A stretch of 21,128 nucleotides of DNA from IMG/VR virus record IMGVR_UViG_3300042553_000256, positions 1 through 21,128 of that record. The stretch is one strand, 5' to 3'. Source of the stretch: a virus. The translations under genes were made by a program, and so were the position numbers. Positions 2,105 through 20,243 of the stretch are shown piece by piece. How positions within the stretch are numbered: the first letter of the stretch is position 1; each line of letters opens with the position of its first letter. The notes below the pieces were generated by a model. The model was given only the letters and a program-made list of their open reading frames with translations, was not told the origin of the DNA and ran no database searches.

Positions 2105-3663
2105 GCAACTTTTATTTCGATCAAGACGCAGCAGATCGCGCGGTGCAATTCTTTCCAGAATGCCTCGTGCACGTTAAGGGAGAGAAGGCTGGGCAGCCAT
2201 TTCATCTGCATCCATCACACGCGAAGATTGTTTCTGACTTGTTTGGCTGGAAGCGATCAAACGGAACAAGGAAATATAGAAAAGCGTACATAGAGATTCC
2301 GCGAAAGAATGCAAAAAGCACTCTTGCTGCTGGCATAGCAATTTACCTGCTGTTGTGTGACCACGAAAAGGGGGGTGAGGTATACTCGGCCGCGTCAACT
2401 AGAGATCAGGCTAGTCTGGTTTTCAACATGGCTGCAAGCATGCTGAGGCATTCAAAAACATTGAGTAAGCATGTCAGCATTCGAGACAGCGTTAAACGAA
2501 TTTTGCACAAAAAGTCAGACAGTTTTTATCGAGCAATTTCAGCAGACGCAGAAGGGGCTCACGGATTTAACGCAAACGGCATTATTTTTGACGAGGTGCA
2601 CACTCAGCCAAATCGTGATTTGTGGGAGGTGCTTGACACTTCAACAGGAGCAAGGGCTCAGCCACTAACGTTTGCCATCACTACTGCCGGGCACGACAAA
2701 ACATCCATCTGTTGGGAGTTGCACCAGTATGCAAAGGCAATTCTTGGCGGAGAAATTGTAGACGATAGTTTTTATGCCGTGATATACGGGGCTGATTACG
2801 AGGACGACTGGCAATCGGAAAGCACATGGTTCAAGGCAAATCCATTGTTGGGGGAGGCTGTTTCGCTCGATTACATTCGCGAACAATGCAAGCGAGCACA
2901 GGAACAGCCAGCGTTTCAAAACAGTTTCCGGCGACTTCATTTGAATCAGTGGACCGAACAAGAAAGCAGACTGATTCCGATGCAGCAGTGGGACAAGTGT
3001 CAGGGTGATTTGGACATTAGAGATTTCGATGGCAGAGTGTGTTTTGGCGGGTTGGATCTGTCATCTACTCGGGACGTGACGGCATTTGTGCTGCTGTTTC
3101 CTCGGGCTGATGGCGTCGACATTTTCCCCTATTTCTGGATTCCGGAGGAAAACATCAGCAAGCGAGCCGCACAGGATCAGCGAGTCATTCGATCTTTTGC
3201 GGATGCAGGCTATATCGAGGTGACAGAGGGCAACGAAGTCGACGTGATGCGGGTTGCGGAACGCATCATGGAAATATCTGCCCCGTTTGATTTGCGTCGT
3301 ATCGGGTTTGATCCGTGGAATGCTGCAGGTCCGACACAACGAATGAAGGAACTCGGGCTTCCGGACGATGTGCTGATTAAGATGGTGCAGGGCACGGCAA
3401 CATACAATGAACCAATCAAGCAACTGCTGTCGATGCTCGGGTCAGGTCGGTTTCGTCACGATGGCAACAAGGTGCTGCGGTGGATGGCATCAAATGCCGC
3501 TGGATTAGAGGATAGCAATGGCAATTTGAAGTTTCACAAAGGCAAGTCGGGTGATAAGATTGACGGTATGACCGCTCTCGGCATGTCGTTGGCTCTATAC
3601 ATCACGGAGAACCCCGAATCGTCGGCATATAAAAAAGCAGGGTCCGGCGTAATTTTGTTCTGA
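2101..3663 (+). CDS. terL: terminase large subunit
   Basis: A 520-residue DNA-packaging motor. The N-terminal ATPase domain has a Walker A-type motif PRKNAKST at 67-74 and Walker B with the catalytic acid, IIFDEVH at 161-167 (D164, E165). A coupling motif-like segment FAITTAGHD follows at 191-199. The C-terminal RNase H-like nuclease domain shows the expected acidic triad: D319 in GGLDLSS, D404 in GFDPWNA and D488 in KIDGMTA. Length and motifs match the Terminase_1/HK97-type family. It would translocate DNA through the portal and cut concatemers. Translation is coupled to terS by ATGA. The stop TGA abuts the Shine-Dalgarno of the portal gene. Confidence 0.96.
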   Translation: MSNFYFDQDAADRAVQFFPECLVHVKGEKAGQPFHLHPSHAKIVSDLFGWKRSNGTRKYRKAYIEIPRKNAKSTLAAGIAIYLLLCDHEKGGEVYSAASTRDQASLVFNMAASMLRHSKTLSKHVSIRDSVKRILHKKSDSFYRAISADAEGAHGFNANGIIFDEVHTQPNRDLWEVLDTSTGARAQPLTFAITTAGHDKTSICWELHQYAKAILGGEIVDDSFYAVIYGADYEDDWQSESTWFKANPLLGEAVSLDYIREQCKRAQEQPAFQNSFRRLHLNQWTEQESRLIPMQQWDKCQGDLDIRDFDGRVCFGGLDLSSTRDVTAFVLLFPRADGVDIFPYFWIPEENISKRAAQDQRVIRSFADAGYIEVTEGNEVDVMRVAERIMEISAPFDLRRIGFDPWNAAGPTQRMKELGLPDDVLIKMVQGTATYNEPIKQLLSMLGSGRFRHDGNKVLRWMASNAAGLEDSNGNLKFHKGKSGDKIDGMTALGMSLALYITENPESSAYKKAGSGVILF

Positions 3664-6754: not shown

Positions 6755-8200
6755 ATGAACAAGCTGAAAGAATTGCAGGCAAAGCGTCAATCCCTGCTGG
6801 ATGACGCTCAGAAGATTATCGACGCTGCTGGCGATCAGATGATGAGCGATGAAGATGCTGGCAAGGTCAAGGCCGCGATGGACGAGGCCGACACTGTCGG
6901 CAATGAGATCGAAGCTTTGGCGAAGAAATCTGCAGAGCAGGACGAACTCCGCAGCAAGTTGGCAAACGCCAAAAACAAGCCGGACGATCCCCGAATCCGT
7001 TCTCTGCTGAATCGTGGAACACTGGCTCCGCATGTTCCGCACGCTGGCAACGGACCGGCCAAACTGCCAAAGAACGTGCGGTTTCAGCGAGTCCAGAACT
7101 TCAAACAACTTGAGGACATGGAATCGCCACAGGTCCGAGCATACCGCTTCGGTATGTGGGCACTGGCCACCATTTCGCAGAGCATGCCGCATCGGTTTTA
7201 CTCACAGCAGGCCGTTAATTTCTGCCTCGATGAGGGGCTGATTTTCAACGCGGCTCATGGTGAAGGCGGATCGGACACGACTGGAGCACATATCTTCGTC
7301 CCGACGGAATTCGGCACAGACCTGATTTTGCTCCGCGAAGAATTCGGATTGGCCCGTCAGTTGTTCAACAACGTGCCAATGTCCAGCGACACAAAGACAG
7401 AGCCTCGCCAGCTGTCCGGCTTGACTGCCTACTTCACGGCAGAAAATGCAGCGGCAACTGAATCGACCATGTCATTCGATGACGTGACACTGGTTGCCAA
7501 AAAGCTGACAGCAATTTCCCGCTTGTCTAACGAACTGAACGCCGATGCCGCAATCAGTTTCGGTGACAAACTTGTTCGTGAAATCGCCTACGCATTTGCC
7601 TCAAAGGAAGATGATTGTGCATTCAACGGTGACGGCACATCGACTTACGGCGGCATGACCGGTGTGCGAACCCGCATGGACGAACTGACGGCCGGAACGG
7701 CTCCGGGGCTGATTCTTGGAGCTGGCAACGCCTACTCCGAATTGACGCTTGCGAACTTCCAAAGCGTGGTTGGTGCTCTTCCGCAGTATGCAGACGGGCC
7801 GGGCACATCGTGGGTATGTCATAAGACATTTGCCCACACTGTAATGCAACGGTTGGCGCTGGCGGCCGGTGGCGTAACTTCGACGGAAATCATCAACGGT
7901 GCATCCGTGATGATGTTCCTTGGGTATCCCGTTCGCATCAGCCAAAAGTTTCCGTCCGTCGAAGCAAACAGCCAGATTCCTGTGCTGTTCGGCAATTTTG
8001 CTCTTGGTGCGATGTTTGGAAGCCGCACAGGTTCCGAAACAATCGCATTCAGCAGCGAAGCGACCGTGGGCGGAGAGTCAATGTGGGAACGCGATCAGAT
8101 TGGCGTGCGTGGCACGGAACGCTTTGACGTGGTTGTCCACGACTACGGCAGCAACTCAACCGCAGGCCCGATTGTCGGCCTCGAAATGGCTGGCAGCTAA
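6755..8200 (+). CDS. major capsid protein, HK97 fold
   Basis: A 481-residue protein. Residues 1 to about 75 form a charged helical or coiled-coil delta domain (repeated Glu, Lys and Ala heptad-like pattern), the usual internal scaffold removed by the prohead protease. The HK97 core follows a Pro-rich linker near 85-105. It contains the typical N-arm and E-loop region with IFVPTEFGTDLILLREE, the SRLSNELNAD helix, FGDKLVREIAYAFASKEDDCAFNGDG, and a C-terminal VGGESMWERDQIGVRGTERFDVVV strand pattern. It assembles the icosahedral shell. The ATG is chosen because AGGGGA at 6743-6748 lies six bases upstream; an in-frame ATG at 6722 lies within the hairpin tail. The gene is flanked by hairpins on both sides, fitting separate control of the most abundant protein. 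Confidence 0.95.
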   Translation: MNKLKELQAKRQSLLDDAQKIIDAAGDQMMSDEDAGKVKAAMDEADTVGNEIEALAKKSAEQDELRSKLANAKNKPDDPRIRSLLNRGTLAPHVPHAGNGPAKLPKNVRFQRVQNFKQLEDMESPQVRAYRFGMWALATISQSMPHRFYSQQAVNFCLDEGLIFNAAHGEGGSDTTGAHIFVPTEFGTDLILLREEFGLARQLFNNVPMSSDTKTEPRQLSGLTAYFTAENAAATESTMSFDDVTLVAKKLTAISRLSNELNADAAISFGDKLVREIAYAFASKEDDCAFNGDGTSTYGGMTGVRTRMDELTAGTAPGLILGAGNAYSELTLANFQSVVGALPQYADGPGTSWVCHKTFAHTVMQRLALAAGGVTSTEIINGASVMMFLGYPVRISQKFPSVEANSQIPVLFGNFALGAMFGSRTGSETIAFSSEATVGGESMWERDQIGVRGTERFDVVVHDYGSNSTAGPIVGLEMAGS

Positions 8201-8222: not shown

Positions 8223-8253
8223 GCCTGCCGGTCATGTGATCGGCGGGCCTTTT
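8223..8253 (+). terminator. strong Rho-independent terminator after the capsid gene
   Basis: GCCTGCCG at 8223-8230 pairs with CGGCGGGC at 8241-8248 (one G-T pair). The stem continues inward for three more pairs (8231-8233 with 8238-8240) around ATGT. CTTTTC follows. It would lower transcription beyond the capsid gene and help keep capsid protein in excess. Confidence 0.85.
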
Positions 8254-8282: not shown

Positions 8283-8705
8283 ATGTTGCGAGAAAGATTG
8301 GTAAACGATTCGCTGCTCATTGCCCCAAAAGCACAAACGAACAGCGCCACGACGACGGCAAACCTCGACACGAAGGGTGCGAATTACGCCACCATTCGCG
8401 TCGCATTTGCGTCAGAGCTGAACACCAACGCGGTCGGCCCAACACTGGTGCTGTCGCAGTCGGACGACACTGTCGTCACGAACTTTGCGACCATCGACAC
8501 TCAGACGGCCATCGACCTGACCGCAGCTCGTGAGGTTCACTACGGCGTCGATCTTCGCGGCAAAAAGCGTTATCTGCGTTTGGCCGTGACTACGGCAACG
8601 GCGACGAACGACAACGTCACGTTTGCTGCAGTCGCAACGCTCAGCGATCTGGAAAACGCACCGAACGGAACAACCAGCGTCGCCGACACGGTGGTGTTCG
8701 CTTAA
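8283..8705 (+). CDS. probable capsid decoration or cement protein
   Basis: A 140-residue Thr/Ala/Asn-rich protein with an alternating beta-strand pattern (NYATIRVAFAS, GPTLVLSQSDD, KRYLRLAVTTATA, NVTFAAVATL). The 'strand, Gly-x-Thr, LxxSxDxxxxTxF' arrangement recalls small beta-sandwich virion proteins found next to capsid genes. Its place directly after the capsid gene, before the connectors, is where decoration or cement proteins are usually encoded. The start follows AAGGAG, optimally spaced. The stop overlaps the methyltransferase ATG by one base (TAATG), which could mean the enzyme acts on this protein; that is inference only. Confidence 0.6.
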   Translation: MLRERLVNDSLLIAPKAQTNSATTTANLDTKGANYATIRVAFASELNTNAVGPTLVLSQSDDTVVTNFATIDTQTAIDLTAAREVHYGVDLRGKKRYLRLAVTTATATNDNVTFAAVATLSDLENAPNGTTSVADTVVFA

Positions 8706-9301
8706 TGTCGCAACACGGCTCAATCAATTACGTGGCTCACGTTCCTTGGCTTCAGGGCAAAGCTCACAACGTCTACACGCAATTTGGCGAGGACGGATTG
8801 ATCGCCGCCGGTTTGCAACGAATCGGAGAAACCAACCGTCACTGCTTCGAAATCGGAGCAGCTGACGGGCGGTTTTTCTCCAACACGCTACTCCTGAGGG
8901 AGCAGGGGTGGTTTTCCGTGCTGATCGAGGGCAACGAAAAACTGTTCGACAAACTGCAGGCGGACTATGGAACCGAGTCAACTTGTATCCATCGGCTTTG
9001 CGGTGATCTCGATTCTGTGCTTCGCGAAACAAATATCAACACGGAACCGGACCTTGGAATCATCGACATCGACGGTCAGGATTATTGGATGTGGCACGAT
9101 TTGCAAGACGTGCAGCCACGAATCATGCTTGTTGAAATCAGCACACAAGGAACATCATCGCCGATCCCGAAACGAGGCGAACCATATCCCGCACAGGCCG
9201 GGCTATTAGCGATTCAGTCACTGGGAATTCAGAAGGGGTATACGCTCGTTGCCTCGACTTTCTGTAACGCTCTATTCGTCAAAGACTCATGCTTAAATTA
9301 A
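8705..9301 (+). CDS. FkbM-like SAM methyltransferase
   Basis: A 198-residue class I methyltransferase-like protein. Landmarks: an N-terminal QFGEDGLI at 26-33, motif I FEIGAADG at 48-55, LIEGN at 73-77 (the acidic ribose-binding end of strand 2), and IDIDGQDYWMW at 120-130 followed by LVEIS at 142-146. The FEIGAADG/IDGQDYW combination is the pattern of FkbM-related enzymes, which O-methylate sugars or small glycosidic groups. The protein is complete but shorter than many FkbM proteins. It starts at a TAATG overlap and ends 13 bases inside the methyltransferase-glycosyltransferase gene, so the two are made together. The substrate is unknown; a virion glycan is plausible from context. Confidence 0.7.
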   Translation: MSQHGSINYVAHVPWLQGKAHNVYTQFGEDGLIAAGLQRIGETNRHCFEIGAADGRFFSNTLLLREQGWFSVLIEGNEKLFDKLQADYGTESTCIHRLCGDLDSVLRETNINTEPDLGIIDIDGQDYWMWHDLQDVQPRIMLVEISTQGTSSPIPKRGEPYPAQAGLLAIQSLGIQKGYTLVASTFCNALFVKDSCLN

Positions 9302-10413
9302 ACATTGGAGCAGGCAGCACAGTTATTCCGGGATTCACTGCCATTGATCGCAAGCTTGGCAGCGAGGCGTTCCCTCTTAATTATCCAGACAACTCGGTGG
9401 ATGAAATCCGAGCCAGTCACATCCTCGAACATTTCACATTCATAGACGCTCAGAAAGCTCTGCAAGAGTGGACGCGAGTTTTGAAACCTGGCGGTCGAAT
9501 TCGGCTGGCAGTTCCAGACCTCGACGCGGCGTCAAAAGCAGATCCAGATGAGTGGCCATTTATCGTGATGGGTGGCCAAACGAACGAGGACGATATTCAC
9601 CGCTCGGCGTGGAATGAAAACAGGCTGAAAGCCCACATGGAACACTTTGGTCTAACCAACGTGCGACGATGGGAATCACCGAATACGGACACGGCGGCAC
9701 ATCCATGCTCTTTGAATCTTGAGGGTGTCAAGGGTGCTGTCGCAGAACCAAAGATCAACACAGTAAAGGTCGGAGCATACCTGACGCTTCCACGATACGA
9801 AGCAGTGGCGGCCAGAACGGTAATTGAGCAGGCATTGAAGCCGCACAAAATCAACCTCACGACTACGCAAGGCGTGTTTTGGGGGCAGTGTATGCAGCGA
9901 ATGTTTCAGGACGCGGTGGATAAGGACATCGACTGGATTCTTTCACTCGATTCGGATTCGCTGTTTACAGACAAACACGTTTCTCAGATGTTTGCGATCT
10001 TTAATTCAAATCCGCATATCGATGCAATGGCGGCTTTGCAATGTCGACGCGGTTCGAAGTATCCATTATTGACGACCGGAACAGGCATCGAGGATGAACA
10101 CATTCAGGTCGACGGTAAACCGTTCCGAGTGACGACGGCACATTTCGGCCTGACGCTGATTCGGGTGTCGGCATTGAAGAACGTTGAAAAGCCGTGGTTT
10201 AAGTCACAGCCATCTGAAACTGGCGACTGGAACGACGACAGGCTGGATGATGACATATGGTTTTGGCATCAGTGGAGGCTGGCCGGCAAAAATATTTACG
10301 TGGCTCCGTCAGTTTCAATCGGGCATCTCGAGGAAACCGTCGCTGTCTTTGACGACCAGATGCAAGGCAAGCACATTTATGTGCACGAGTGGCGAAAGGA
10401 AAACGGGCTGTGA
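9289..10413 (+). CDS. methyltransferase-glycosyltransferase fusion
   Basis: A 374-residue two-domain enzyme. Residues 1 to about 145 are a class I methyltransferase: LNIGAGS (4-10, motif I), ASHILEHF (42-49) and RVLKPGGRIRLAVPD (63-77), as in Methyltransf_11-type proteins, but short. Residues about 155-374 are a GT-A-like glycosyltransferase: VGAYLTLPRY at the start, DWILSLDSDS (215-224) with a DxD-type metal site D221/D223, and an acidic motif D320-D322 followed by WFWHQWRLAGKNIYV and GHLE (345-348). The fold assignment is by pattern. The gene lies between capsid/decoration and connector genes, an uncommon place for a sugar-transfer enzyme, and overlaps both neighbours. No frameshift is needed to join the domains. 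It could add a methylated sugar to a head protein. Confidence 0.78.
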   Translation: MLKLNIGAGSTVIPGFTAIDRKLGSEAFPLNYPDNSVDEIRASHILEHFTFIDAQKALQEWTRVLKPGGRIRLAVPDLDAASKADPDEWPFIVMGGQTNEDDIHRSAWNENRLKAHMEHFGLTNVRRWESPNTDTAAHPCSLNLEGVKGAVAEPKINTVKVGAYLTLPRYEAVAARTVIEQALKPHKINLTTTQGVFWGQCMQRMFQDAVDKDIDWILSLDSDSLFTDKHVSQMFAIFNSNPHIDAMAALQCRRGSKYPLLTTGTGIEDEHIQVDGKPFRVTTAHFGLTLIRVSALKNVEKPWFKSQPSETGDWNDDRLDDDIWFWHQWRLAGKNIYVAPSVSIGHLEETVAVFDDQMQGKHIYVHEWRKENGL

Positions 10414-10637
10414 TTGTCCTGCTGAAAACATGGAACGGGTTTCCGGTTGGTTTCGTTAACACTGTCATCGGTCGCGGTGCTGCGATGGAATTGGTTCGGC
10501 GTGGAATCGCTCGCTGGGCTGACGAACATGAAAACGAGGATGCGAAATGTACCCAGGCAAAACGACATTCAAAACCACATCGGGGCCAACAACCGAACCG
10601 CTCACGCTCGATGAACTCAAAACACGACTCCGAATAG
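10410..10637 (+). CDS. 75-residue protein of unknown function
   Basis: Starts at GTG 10410 in a GTGA overlap with the upstream stop; AAAGGA at 10395-10400 may be the ribosome site. The first ~45 residues (MIVLLKTWNGFP, a Gly/Val segment, then AMELVRRGIARWADE) look like a small globular domain. The remaining ~30 residues are basic and disordered-looking, and are read from the first 91 bases of the gp6-like gene in another frame. Such a long overlap is unusual here. Small proteins of this kind are common before head-tail adaptor genes. Function unknown. Confidence 0.6.
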   Translation: MIVLLKTWNGFPVGFVNTVIGRGAAMELVRRGIARWADEHENEDAKCTQAKRHSKPHRGQQPNRSRSMNSKHDSE

Positions 10638-11131
10638 GCGTGTGCGATTTCGACAGCGAACTGCAGGACCAATTGAAGGCGGCACGTTTGGCTGTGGAGA
10701 TGGAAACAAATCGGCGATTGATTACGCAGACTGTCGAGTTGTATCTGGAGGATTTTCCGGGGCAGTTTGGCGACATCGAAATCCGGCTGGCTCCGATCTC
10801 GGCAATTACTCACGTCAAGTATTACGATCAAGACGACACACTGCAGACCGTGACATCAACGAACTATTACGAGGATCTGACGACGACACCGCCAAAGATT
10901 GCACTGAAGCAGTCACAGCACTGGCCAGAAACGGAATTGTATCGGCCGAATAAGGTCATCATCACGTTTACAGCCGGATACGGAGCGGCAACAGCAGTTC
11001 CAGCGGCTGCAAAGCTGGCAATCGTGGAATACATTCGATCGGTGAGATGCGGGTGCGATGGCATGTCGGACAAATTCAGGCGGTTGATTTCGGAATTGAA
11101 GTGGGCTGAATATCAAAGGGTTTGCGCGTGA
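10547..11131 (+). CDS. head-tail connector, HK97 gp6-like
   Basis: A 194-residue protein starting MYPGKTTFKT. The signature is PLTLDELKTRLRI near 18-30, then helices containing DSELQDQLKAARLAVEMETNRRLITQTVELYL, and a later VIITFTAGYG strand-turn followed by AAKLAIVEYI. This matches the gp6/YqbG-type connector family, which forms a ring beneath the portal. GAGGA at 10535-10539 is a good ribosome site, placed within the preceding ORF. The TGA stop overlaps the next ATG (TGATG). The position after head genes and before the closure protein is the standard one. Confidence 0.88.
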   Translation: MYPGKTTFKTTSGPTTEPLTLDELKTRLRIGVCDFDSELQDQLKAARLAVEMETNRRLITQTVELYLEDFPGQFGDIEIRLAPISAITHVKYYDQDDTLQTVTSTNYYEDLTTTPPKIALKQSQHWPETELYRPNKVIITFTAGYGAATAVPAAAKLAIVEYIRSVRCGCDGMSDKFRRLISELKWAEYQRVCA

Positions 11132-18391: not shown

Positions 18392-18402
18392 GTGATGTGG
18401 AA

Positions 18403-19569
18403 ATGCGGCAGCTTTCAGGTCGAGCGCTGGAAATCGTTTCAGGGCTTTCGGAACTTCCACCGCACATCGTGCAGCAATACCGGGAAAGGCTCGGCGGGGC
18501 GTTCATTTTGCCAGAGGAGCCTGCTGGCATTAATCGAAAGACAGGCCGGGCAGTCAAGACATCATGCAAAAAACCATGCACGACCTGCAAGCAGAAATCA
18601 GCTTTATCCCGCGCGGTCGATCGGGTTGTAAATCTCAAGAACGCGGCGGTCAACTTCCTCGCTGACGGAATGCACGTTGCTACAGAAGAGCAGCAGGCGA
18701 AACGATCCACAATCTGTGCCGATTGCCCCCTGAACAACAACGGATGGTGCGACGATACGAAAGGCGGCTGCGGGTGCAATCTGGCGCTGAAAGTCAAGCC
18801 GCGTTCGTCATACTGCCCGCTCGGAAAGTGGTCGGCGTATCGAGATGATTGCAGGCCGCTGGTGAATCCGACGCGGCATCTGATGTTTCACCTGTATCCT
18901 CTGCGCGGGAAAGAATTCTGCTGGCACTGGCACATCGAGCAAATCAGAAAGCATCAAGACAAGTTCAACGGCAAAATCGTCATCGGCGTGGGCGTCGATT
19001 CGAAAACAGCGACGATTGAAGAAGTGCAGTCGATGTTCGACGGCATTCGCGTAGACCATTGGCTGCGGGCTGAAAATAACAAACTGGCAGAGACACTGAC
19101 ACACGTCGAGATGCTCAGCCAGTTGTTCACCAAAGATCCGAACGCGATAATCTTTCGCGGGCACACAAAAGGCGTTACGCATCAGCGTGATTCGGTGGAG
19201 CAGAAGTGGGCCGAGATAATGTGGGCGGCAAATATGGACCTGCCATCGGTCGAGGATGCTCTGGCAAGTCACGGAACGTGCGGCGTGATGCGGTCGCAGA
19301 CCCCGCTTGTGAAAACAAAGCCAGGGGCGTTCTTCTACGCGGGCTCGTTTTACTGGATGCGGGCCAAAGAGGTTTTTGAGCGTGACTGGACGTGGAAGGA
19401 AAACAATCGTTGGATTTCGGAATACGTGCCTTCGCATTTGTTCGAGTTCGCGGAGTCTGCCTGCATCTTCCACGACATGGTTCCGTCGTCGGTGCTAAAT
19501 CACGGATACTTTGCGGAACATGTTGACGCGGAATGGCTGGCGTGGAAAGCAGCGAGGGGCATTGAATGA
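18403..19569 (+). CDS. Cys-rich domain fused to a glycosyltransferase-like domain
   Basis: A 388-residue protein. AGGTGA at 18390-18395 fixes the ATG at 18403, rather than GTG at 18397. Residues about 55-145 hold nine Cys: C55, C59 and C62, then C105/C108, C116, C123/C125 and C138, ending SYCPLGKW, a pattern resembling zinc- or iron-binding Cys domains. Residues about 155-365 begin HLMFHLYPLRG and include KIVIGVGVDSKT, the HTKG motif (254-257) and FFYAGSFYWMRA. This arrangement resembles glycosyltransferases linked to polysaccharide synthesis. I would call it glycosyltransferase-like, not proven; no DxD motif is obvious. The stop overlaps the next glycosyltransferase ATG. Confidence 0.6.
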   Translation: MRQLSGRALEIVSGLSELPPHIVQQYRERLGGAFILPEEPAGINRKTGRAVKTSCKKPCTTCKQKSALSRAVDRVVNLKNAAVNFLADGMHVATEEQQAKRSTICADCPLNNNGWCDDTKGGCGCNLALKVKPRSSYCPLGKWSAYRDDCRPLVNPTRHLMFHLYPLRGKEFCWHWHIEQIRKHQDKFNGKIVIGVGVDSKTATIEEVQSMFDGIRVDHWLRAENNKLAETLTHVEMLSQLFTKDPNAIIFRGHTKGVTHQRDSVEQKWAEIMWAANMDLPSVEDALASHGTCGVMRSQTPLVKTKPGAFFYAGSFYWMRAKEVFERDWTWKENNRWISEYVPSHLFEFAESACIFHDMVPSSVLNHGYFAEHVDAEWLAWKAARGIE

Positions 19570-20243
19570 TTCCGGTCTATGTCAACACGTTTAACAGGCT
19601 GACAACAACACGCAAACTCTGCGAACAAATCGCAGCACTCGACAACGCTTTTCCGGTCATCATTGACAATGCGAGCACATGGGAGCCTTTGCTAGACTGG
19701 TATCAGCATTGCCCATTTGAGGTAATTCGACTGACAGAAAACTACGGCCATCACGCTCCTTGGCGGGTCGGATTAGTCAACAGTCCCAACGCTGGCTTTT
19801 ACTGCGTCACTGACTGCGATCTGGACCTGCAAGGCGTTCCGGCCGATCTCATTGAAGTGCTGCGAATTCCACTTAACTGGACGCGACGCTATGTAATTAA
19901 ATCAGGCGTTGCACTCCGCATTGACGATTTGCCCCCATTTCAAACGCAGGTCAAGGAATGGGAGTCACGGTTTTGGCGGAATCGCATCGGTGGCGACTAT
20001 TACGCAGCTCCAATTGATACGACGCTGGCAATGTATAGGGCACAAACACCGCATCGACTCGCAATGAAGGTAGCTGGAGTTCGTGCGGTTCGTGTTGGCG
20101 GCCGGTACACGGCTCGCCACGTTCCCTGGTATCTCGACCTGACGAATCTGGACGCAGAGAACCAGAACTACTTCGCGACGGCCAATAGTTCCAACTCGTG
20201 GCGGCCTGATGGCGATAAGCTGGTGTCAAGGTTCTGTGGTTGA
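19566..20243 (+). CDS. GT2-like glycosyltransferase
   Basis: A 225-residue GT-A-type protein starting MIPVYVNTFNR, the usual first strand and nucleotide-binding loop. VIIDNAST at 31-38, IRLTENYGHHAPWR at 54-67 and VTDCDLDL at 81-88 follow, giving a DxD-type metal site (D83, D85). The C-terminal part has GGDYYAAPIDTTLAMYRA and a His-containing HVPWYLDL segment, plausible acceptor-side elements. Short but complete for GT2 enzymes. It overlaps the Cys-rich gene by four bases (ATGA) and ends the late operon before a large hairpin. It could build a glycan on tail proteins or on host wall components; the target is not visible. Confidence 0.75.
   Translation: MIPVYVNTFNRLTTTRKLCEQIAALDNAFPVIIDNASTWEPLLDWYQHCPFEVIRLTENYGHHAPWRVGLVNSPNAGFYCVTDCDLDLQGVPADLIEVLRIPLNWTRRYVIKSGVALRIDDLPPFQTQVKEWESRFWRNRIGGDYYAAPIDTTLAMYRAQTPHRLAMKVAGVRAVRVGGRYTARHVPWYLDLTNLDAENQNYFATANSSNSWRPDGDKLVSRFCG

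Follow-up and report, generated by a model that had tools for sequence, protein, structure and literature searches.

Phage heads are usually regarded as bare protein, and glycosylation of the head is known from only a few phages. What, then, are genes for sugar transfer and methylation doing in the middle of a phage head operon? The window considered here, that is, the whole 21,128-base IMG/VR virus contig that was analysed, is arranged in the order terminase, portal, ClpP-type protease, HK97 capsid, connector and tail genes, and carries such genes between capsid and connector. A preliminary description had hypothesised that the encoded enzymes decorate the capsid surface with methylated sugars. 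Comparison with relatives indicates that, among highly diverged uncultured phages, the sugar-transfer gene is bound to the capsid gene no less tightly than the connector. Many related phages keep or swap sugar enzymes at this capsid-adjoining spot, which suggests a coat of modified sugars that these phages put on their own shells.

Organisation of the head module

The HK97-type major capsid protein (MCP) gene lies at 6755–8200 on the plus strand, as do all the features that follow it up to the connector. Its product matches Pfam Phage_capsid (E 6e-31) and the major head protein family phrog_10 (E 3e-48), and the gene served as the synteny anchor for relatives. Between the MCP stop and the next gene, a consensus scan found a strong terminator-like hairpin of 11 pairs (8223–8248), possibly an attenuator that holds enzyme levels under the capsid level. 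The next gene (8283–8705) encodes a decoration-type protein of 140 aa, which matches phrog_5707 (E 2e-7) and is all-beta in its AlphaFold2 model (pLDDT 82.3); comparison of this model with the PDB gave no informative match.

The two genes of interest follow. An FkbM-like, SAM-dependent O-methyltransferase of 198 aa (8705–9301) precedes a methyltransferase–glycosyltransferase protein, here called MTGT (9289–10413). A small ORF (10410–10637), taken from the ORF list, traced in relatives by tblastn and kept in the near clade, occupies the interval before the gp6-like head-tail connector (10547–11131; phrog_442 head-tail adaptor, E 4e-21), which marks the downstream boundary of the module. The decoration-type ORF ends in TAA, and the FkbM ATG begins on its final A; the FkbM ORF and MTGT overlap by 13 bases; and a GTG overlapping the MTGT stop (GTGA at 10410) is a usable start for the small ORF. 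Because of these overlapping starts and stops, the set from decoration-type gene to small ORF is likely to be translationally coupled. The position of the pair between capsid/decoration genes and connector, and its one-base overlap with the decoration gene, are as the preliminary description had them.

Two further regions of the window deserve mention. Immediately 5' of the terminase genes are two HNH-type ORFs, one with a Pfam HNH match (897–1649, E 1e-9) and one so called by eye (610–903). At the end of the tail module are two overlapping ORFs that are glycosyltransferase-like in appearance. The first (18397–19569) encodes 390 aa, of which the Cys-rich N-terminal part matches phrog_13558, and the second (19566–20243) encodes 225 aa with a CVTDCDLD stretch. 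Neither scored above cutoff against Pfam, and the pair is present at the equivalent position in some close relatives.

Domains and predicted folds

The FkbM ORF carries FEIGAADG and IDIDGQDYW, so that the coordinates and motifs (FEIGAADG, IDGQDYW) first given for it are exact. Its family alignment has invariant GED, CFE.GA.DG and IDIDG.D motifs. The window protein itself matches PF05050 weakly (E 0.034; 14.7 bits against a curated Pfam cutoff of 22.7), while 5 of 19 family members match at E<=0.01, with a best E of 5e-7, and the protein of locus L249 exceeds the curated cutoff at 28.8 bits.

MTGT is a single ORF of 374 aa that contains NIGAGS, LKPGGRIRL and LDSDS in one frame, which bears out the original account of it. 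The N-terminal half (9289–9735) is a class I SAM methyltransferase of the short form, as judged from Pfam, Foldseek and alignment. It matches Methyltransf_11 above cutoff (E 1e-8 to 4e-8), and what is short in it is the spacing from motif I to beta-2, a correction to the earlier wording. The C-terminal half (9766–10413) reached GT2 Pfam models only below threshold (E 0.009–0.04). An AlphaFold2 model built on a 30-sequence alignment has a mean pLDDT of 89.7 and a pTM of 0.58, the latter making the relative placement of the two halves uncertain.

Foldseek searches of the PDB with the methyltransferase half returned class I SAM methyltransferases. The glycosyltransferase half has a GT-A Rossmann-like fold in its model and Foldseek matches, so both folds anticipated for the protein, Rossmann methyltransferase and GT-A, were found. 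Its top PDB matches are COLGALT1, STIV A197, LH3 and GalNAc-T2, among which COLGALT1 and GalNAc-T2 are protein glycosyltransferases and STIV A197 is a viral glycosyltransferase. COLGALT1, GalNAc-T2 and LH3 are the closest solved folds and act on protein acceptors, but identity is 10–16%, and they are eukaryotic secretory enzymes without a methyltransferase half. Among viral models, MTGT mainly matched phage glycosyltransferases and methyltransferases of uncultured Caudovirales, together with Gp87 of mycobacteriophage Ardmore. With D221-x-D223, H285, D320-x-D322 and GH346, this half is predicted from the model to be a GT-A glycosyltransferase of the metal-dependent type.

Conservation and spread of MTGT

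Searching IMG/VR with MTGT yielded 129 confirmed near-clade relatives and a large distant set; reading of the latter covered its best 80 members. The alignment comprises 152 distinct MTGT proteins (153 rows), and locus counts rest on the best 80 loci per search. D221 and D223 are present in 152 of 153 rows, the remaining row having a gap, and together with H285, D322, W326 and H346 they are essentially invariant in the 152 proteins, which adds to the GT-A assignment. The methyltransferase half keeps H44, L46, E47, H48 and G69 throughout; in its motif I, G7 occurs in 147 and G9 in 142 of the 153 rows. The acid expected to contact the SAM ribose at the end of beta-2 is D20 in the window and 110 relatives; a distant clade with 40 members has Gly there and retains the other conserved positions of this half. 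In that clade, to judge from sequence, the methyltransferase half may have lost or changed its activity or taken on another role.

Pairwise dN/dS between MTGT and relatives of about 95% identity is about 0.03 overall and low in both halves. Wherever synonymous sites are unsaturated, it is about 0.03–0.1, which is far below 1 and indicates strong purifying selection. Conservation, dN/dS and intact frames rule out a chance or misread ORF.

All members are uncultured or prophage sequences, and searches of 50,697 phage and 72,556 plasmid records turned up no relative of full length. Prophage-like matches come from assemblies titled Planctomycetaceae, Phycisphaerae, Deltaproteobacteria and others; since all of these are metagenome-assembled genomes (MAGs), binning error is possible. 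A locally acquired host gene was considered and rejected: for one prophage-like locus, L145 (titled Phycisphaerae), a search of 392 genomes from the same phylum gave only its own copy at E<=1e-20, which indicates that MTGT is phage-borne. Partial matches in cyanophages S-SM2 and S-CRM01 were rejected as instances of the same system, as capsid genes do not adjoin them.

Four relatives (L003, L004, L008 and L009) have capsid and MTGT regions near-identical to those of the window, and small-terminase or tail genes with 25–40% identity. This pattern suggests a stable head cassette around which recombination is frequent.

Linkage to capsid genes

Upstream sequence of 2.5 kb or more is available for 115 distinct MTGT loci, and in 114 of them an MCP gene lies within 6 kb upstream, at a median gap of 857 bp. 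A decoration-type gene likewise accompanies MTGT in 114 of the 115 loci with enough upstream sequence. Some loci had been retrieved via the MCP, which could have biased this count. Selection bias was rejected, as an HK97-type capsid gene lies within 6 kb in 101 of 102 loci retrieved by MTGT similarity alone (again with at least 2.5 kb upstream). In the exception, L142, MTGT still lies in a phage head module: the ORFs upstream of it resemble portal and protease genes, and those downstream resemble head-tail genes. Distances between MCPs and between MTGTs are correlated (Mantel rho 0.67; 0 of 999 permutations).

Conservation beside capsid genes, which the preliminary description had proposed as a check on the pair, is near-complete for MTGT and partial for the FkbM gene, which is present in 48 of 152 MTGT loci and absent in about two thirds. 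The remark that head operons seldom carry sugar-transfer genes is correct where isolates are concerned; in this uncultured group, such genes are the rule. One phage, L121, has capsid and decoration genes like those of MTGT phages and lacks MTGT, the connector coming next; its capsid needs none, so MTGT is dispensable in principle. Relatives with and without MTGT or FkbM provide natural controls.

Sugar-related neighbour genes

The accessory genes found between capsid and connector in the 152 MTGT loci are mostly sugar enzymes. They include GDP-mannose 4,6-dehydratase (GMD; 10 loci), GDP-fucose synthase (two loci, L125 and L033), sulfotransferase (L048, L140 and L296), an RfaE-like nucleotidyltransferase fused to a kinase-like region (L140, L288 and L289) and extra glycosyltransferases (three loci). 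In L033 and L140, one such gene each is placed between terminase and portal instead.

The fullest arrangement is that of L125, which reads MCP, decoration, GDP-mannose dehydratase, GDP-fucose synthase, MTGT, FkbM. Its GMD scores 540.8 against an NCBIfam equivalog cutoff of 415, and its GDP-fucose synthase 496.5 against a cutoff of 500, short by 3.5 bits; the GDP-fucose synthase in the terminase–portal interval of L033, a window-clade phage, falls below cutoff at 335.6. No donor-synthesis gene was recognised among the window ORFs, and the window phage would draw on a host nucleotide sugar.

The FkbM position is itself variable: in L048, a sulfotransferase occupies it. In a deltaproteobacterial MAG (L143:8459–10666), a single ORF of 735 aa directly 3' of the decoration-type gene combines methyltransferase, FkbM and GT-A regions. 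By the Rosetta stone argument, this triple fusion indicates that FkbM and MTGT belong to one function.

The L140 head module has ORFs at 2153–3238 and 8784–9491 for the RfaE-like nucleotidyltransferase, whose C-terminal region is kinase-like, and for a second protein, which resembles cytidylyltransferases and has a possible MazG-like tail.

Proposed function and alternatives

The FkbM/MTGT pair is probably the central part of a cassette with which the phage glycosylates its own virion. On the best reading, the capsid or decoration protein is glycosylated with a (deoxy)sugar that is then O-methylated or sulfated. Decoration of the capsid with methylated sugars, as originally hypothesised, is the best-supported interpretation given the near-perfect capsid linkage, the co-located genes for GDP-deoxysugars and sulfation, and the triple fusion; the acceptor, the product and the methylation of the sugar are the parts of it that we infer. 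Adjacency in a late operon suggests co-expression rather than a substrate.

In such a cassette, the GT-A half would use a nucleotide sugar as donor, with D221 and D223 holding a divalent metal. Transfer would take place in the cytoplasm during late gene expression, and the sugar would be attached to a side chain, or to a short glycan, on one of two candidate acceptors, the MCP and the small all-beta decoration protein. The donor in some relatives is probably a GDP-deoxyhexose, since GMD or GDP-fucose synthase occurs in the same module. The methyltransferase half and the FkbM enzyme would then O-methylate two positions of the transferred sugar, the latter enzyme being absent or substituted by a sulfotransferase in relatives. 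The outcome would be a head with a capped, methylated sugar coat. Its selective value can be guessed at: altered particle surface chemistry might confer protection, adhesion or escape from binding factors.

A broader generalisation can be advanced tentatively. A widespread, hitherto undescribed class of uncultured tailed phages may carry, inside the head operon, a self-contained, cytoplasmic capsid glycosylation cassette that is independent of lipid carriers. The methyltransferase–glycosyltransferase would add a GDP-deoxyhexose-type sugar to the decoration protein or the capsid, and surface chemistry would vary between close relatives through an exchangeable slot for tailoring functions: O-methylation by FkbM, sulfation, further glycosyltransferases and donor synthesis. 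With GDP-deoxysugars named as candidate donors, and the two proteins above as acceptors, the surface chemistry of many uncultured phages becomes an ordinary expression and mass-spectrometry question.

The pair might instead modify a host surface glycan (O-antigen, capsule or S-layer) in the style of serotype conversion, blocking superinfection or adsorption to debris. Cell-surface glycans often contain GDP-deoxysugars, O-methylation and sulfation, phage-encoded LPS glycosyltransferases are known, and one MTGT phage, L226, is temperate in organisation, with integrase-like ORFs at both contig ends. Conversion genes are normally morons with their own promoter, and Gtr systems add a membrane-bound flippase and transferase. 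Here, however, the genes are translationally coupled within the head module in essentially every case, and the enzymes would act late in infection only. Neither FkbM nor MTGT has a detectable hydrophobic or transmembrane segment (maximum KD19 1.1), contrary to the Gtr type, and the pair fits a cytoplasmic protein-modifying enzyme, in which no such segment is expected. Modification of the host surface consequently appears unlikely.

It is doubtful, too, that the cassette targets another virion protein, such as tail tube or tail fibre, or a secreted or host factor, with its place in the head operon a matter of timing only. Mycobacteriophage tail proteins, besides capsids, are reportedly glycosylated, and the two glycosyltransferase-like genes that close the tail module (18397–20243) could be taken in the same sense. 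Against this stands the strict MCP/decoration neighbourhood, which persists across very diverged phages, including those with unrelated tail modules.

It is highly improbable that the enzymes act ahead of packaging to glycosylate or hypermodify the phage's DNA or some other nucleic acid: phage glycosyltransferases acting on DNA bases are classical in T-even phages and packaging genes are nearby, but the T-even enzymes have the GT-B fold whereas the MTGT half is GT-A and by Foldseek closest to protein glycosyltransferases, GMD, sulfotransferase and FkbM suit glycans better, and the window, whose tail half is incompletely annotated, has no recognised gene for a hydroxymethylase or for base modification.

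Comparison with known systems

Virion glycosylation thus remains the favoured reading, and it has precedents. In the chlorovirus PBCV-1, A064R combines glycosyltransferase and methyltransferase domains in one protein and, with A061L, a second methyltransferase, builds the methylated end of the capsid glycan (PMC9614988). As in the present pair, a viral fusion that includes a GT-A domain is joined by a separate second methyltransferase; the virus makes its own nucleotide sugars, and its major capsid protein ends up carrying an O-methylated sugar (PMC9614988). By analogy, MTGT would work most like A064R/A061L without being a member of that system. PBCV-1 is a virus of eukaryotic algae, its glycan is a multi-sugar N-glycan, and its genes are not shown as a head operon. 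The three domains of A064R stand in the opposite order, GT-GT-MT, whereas MTGT is MT-GT and L143 is MT-FkbM-GT. The sole structural link found to PBCV-1 is a weak Foldseek match to Q98454 (E 1.5e-6).

Mycobacteriophages of the Che8/Rita type are tailed phages in which, as summarised in PMC11256854 from Freeman 2023, phage-encoded glycosyltransferases place covalent glycans on the major capsid protein. Gp87 of Ardmore, noted above, is structurally related to the GT half. In Maravista, an F1 relative, the glycosyltransferase genes lie near the genome 3' end according to the same source, unlike the decoration–connector interval occupied here, and that account describes no MT-GT fusion.

The claim that the arrangement is undescribed consequently holds for this arrangement in particular, of which a literature search, mostly without subscription papers, found no description; it does not extend to virion glycosylation by phages (Che8) or to fusions of the A064R kind.

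A further parallel comes from ctKR88 (MW202524; L305/L307/L308), an uncultured and unrelated podovirus. Unfused homologues of both MTGT halves adjoin one another downstream of its MCP gene, beside three more glycosyltransferase genes. It differs in the lack of fusion and in phage type, and is annotated by similarity only. In total, at least four glycosyltransferase and two methyltransferase genes lie downstream of the ctKR88 capsid gene.
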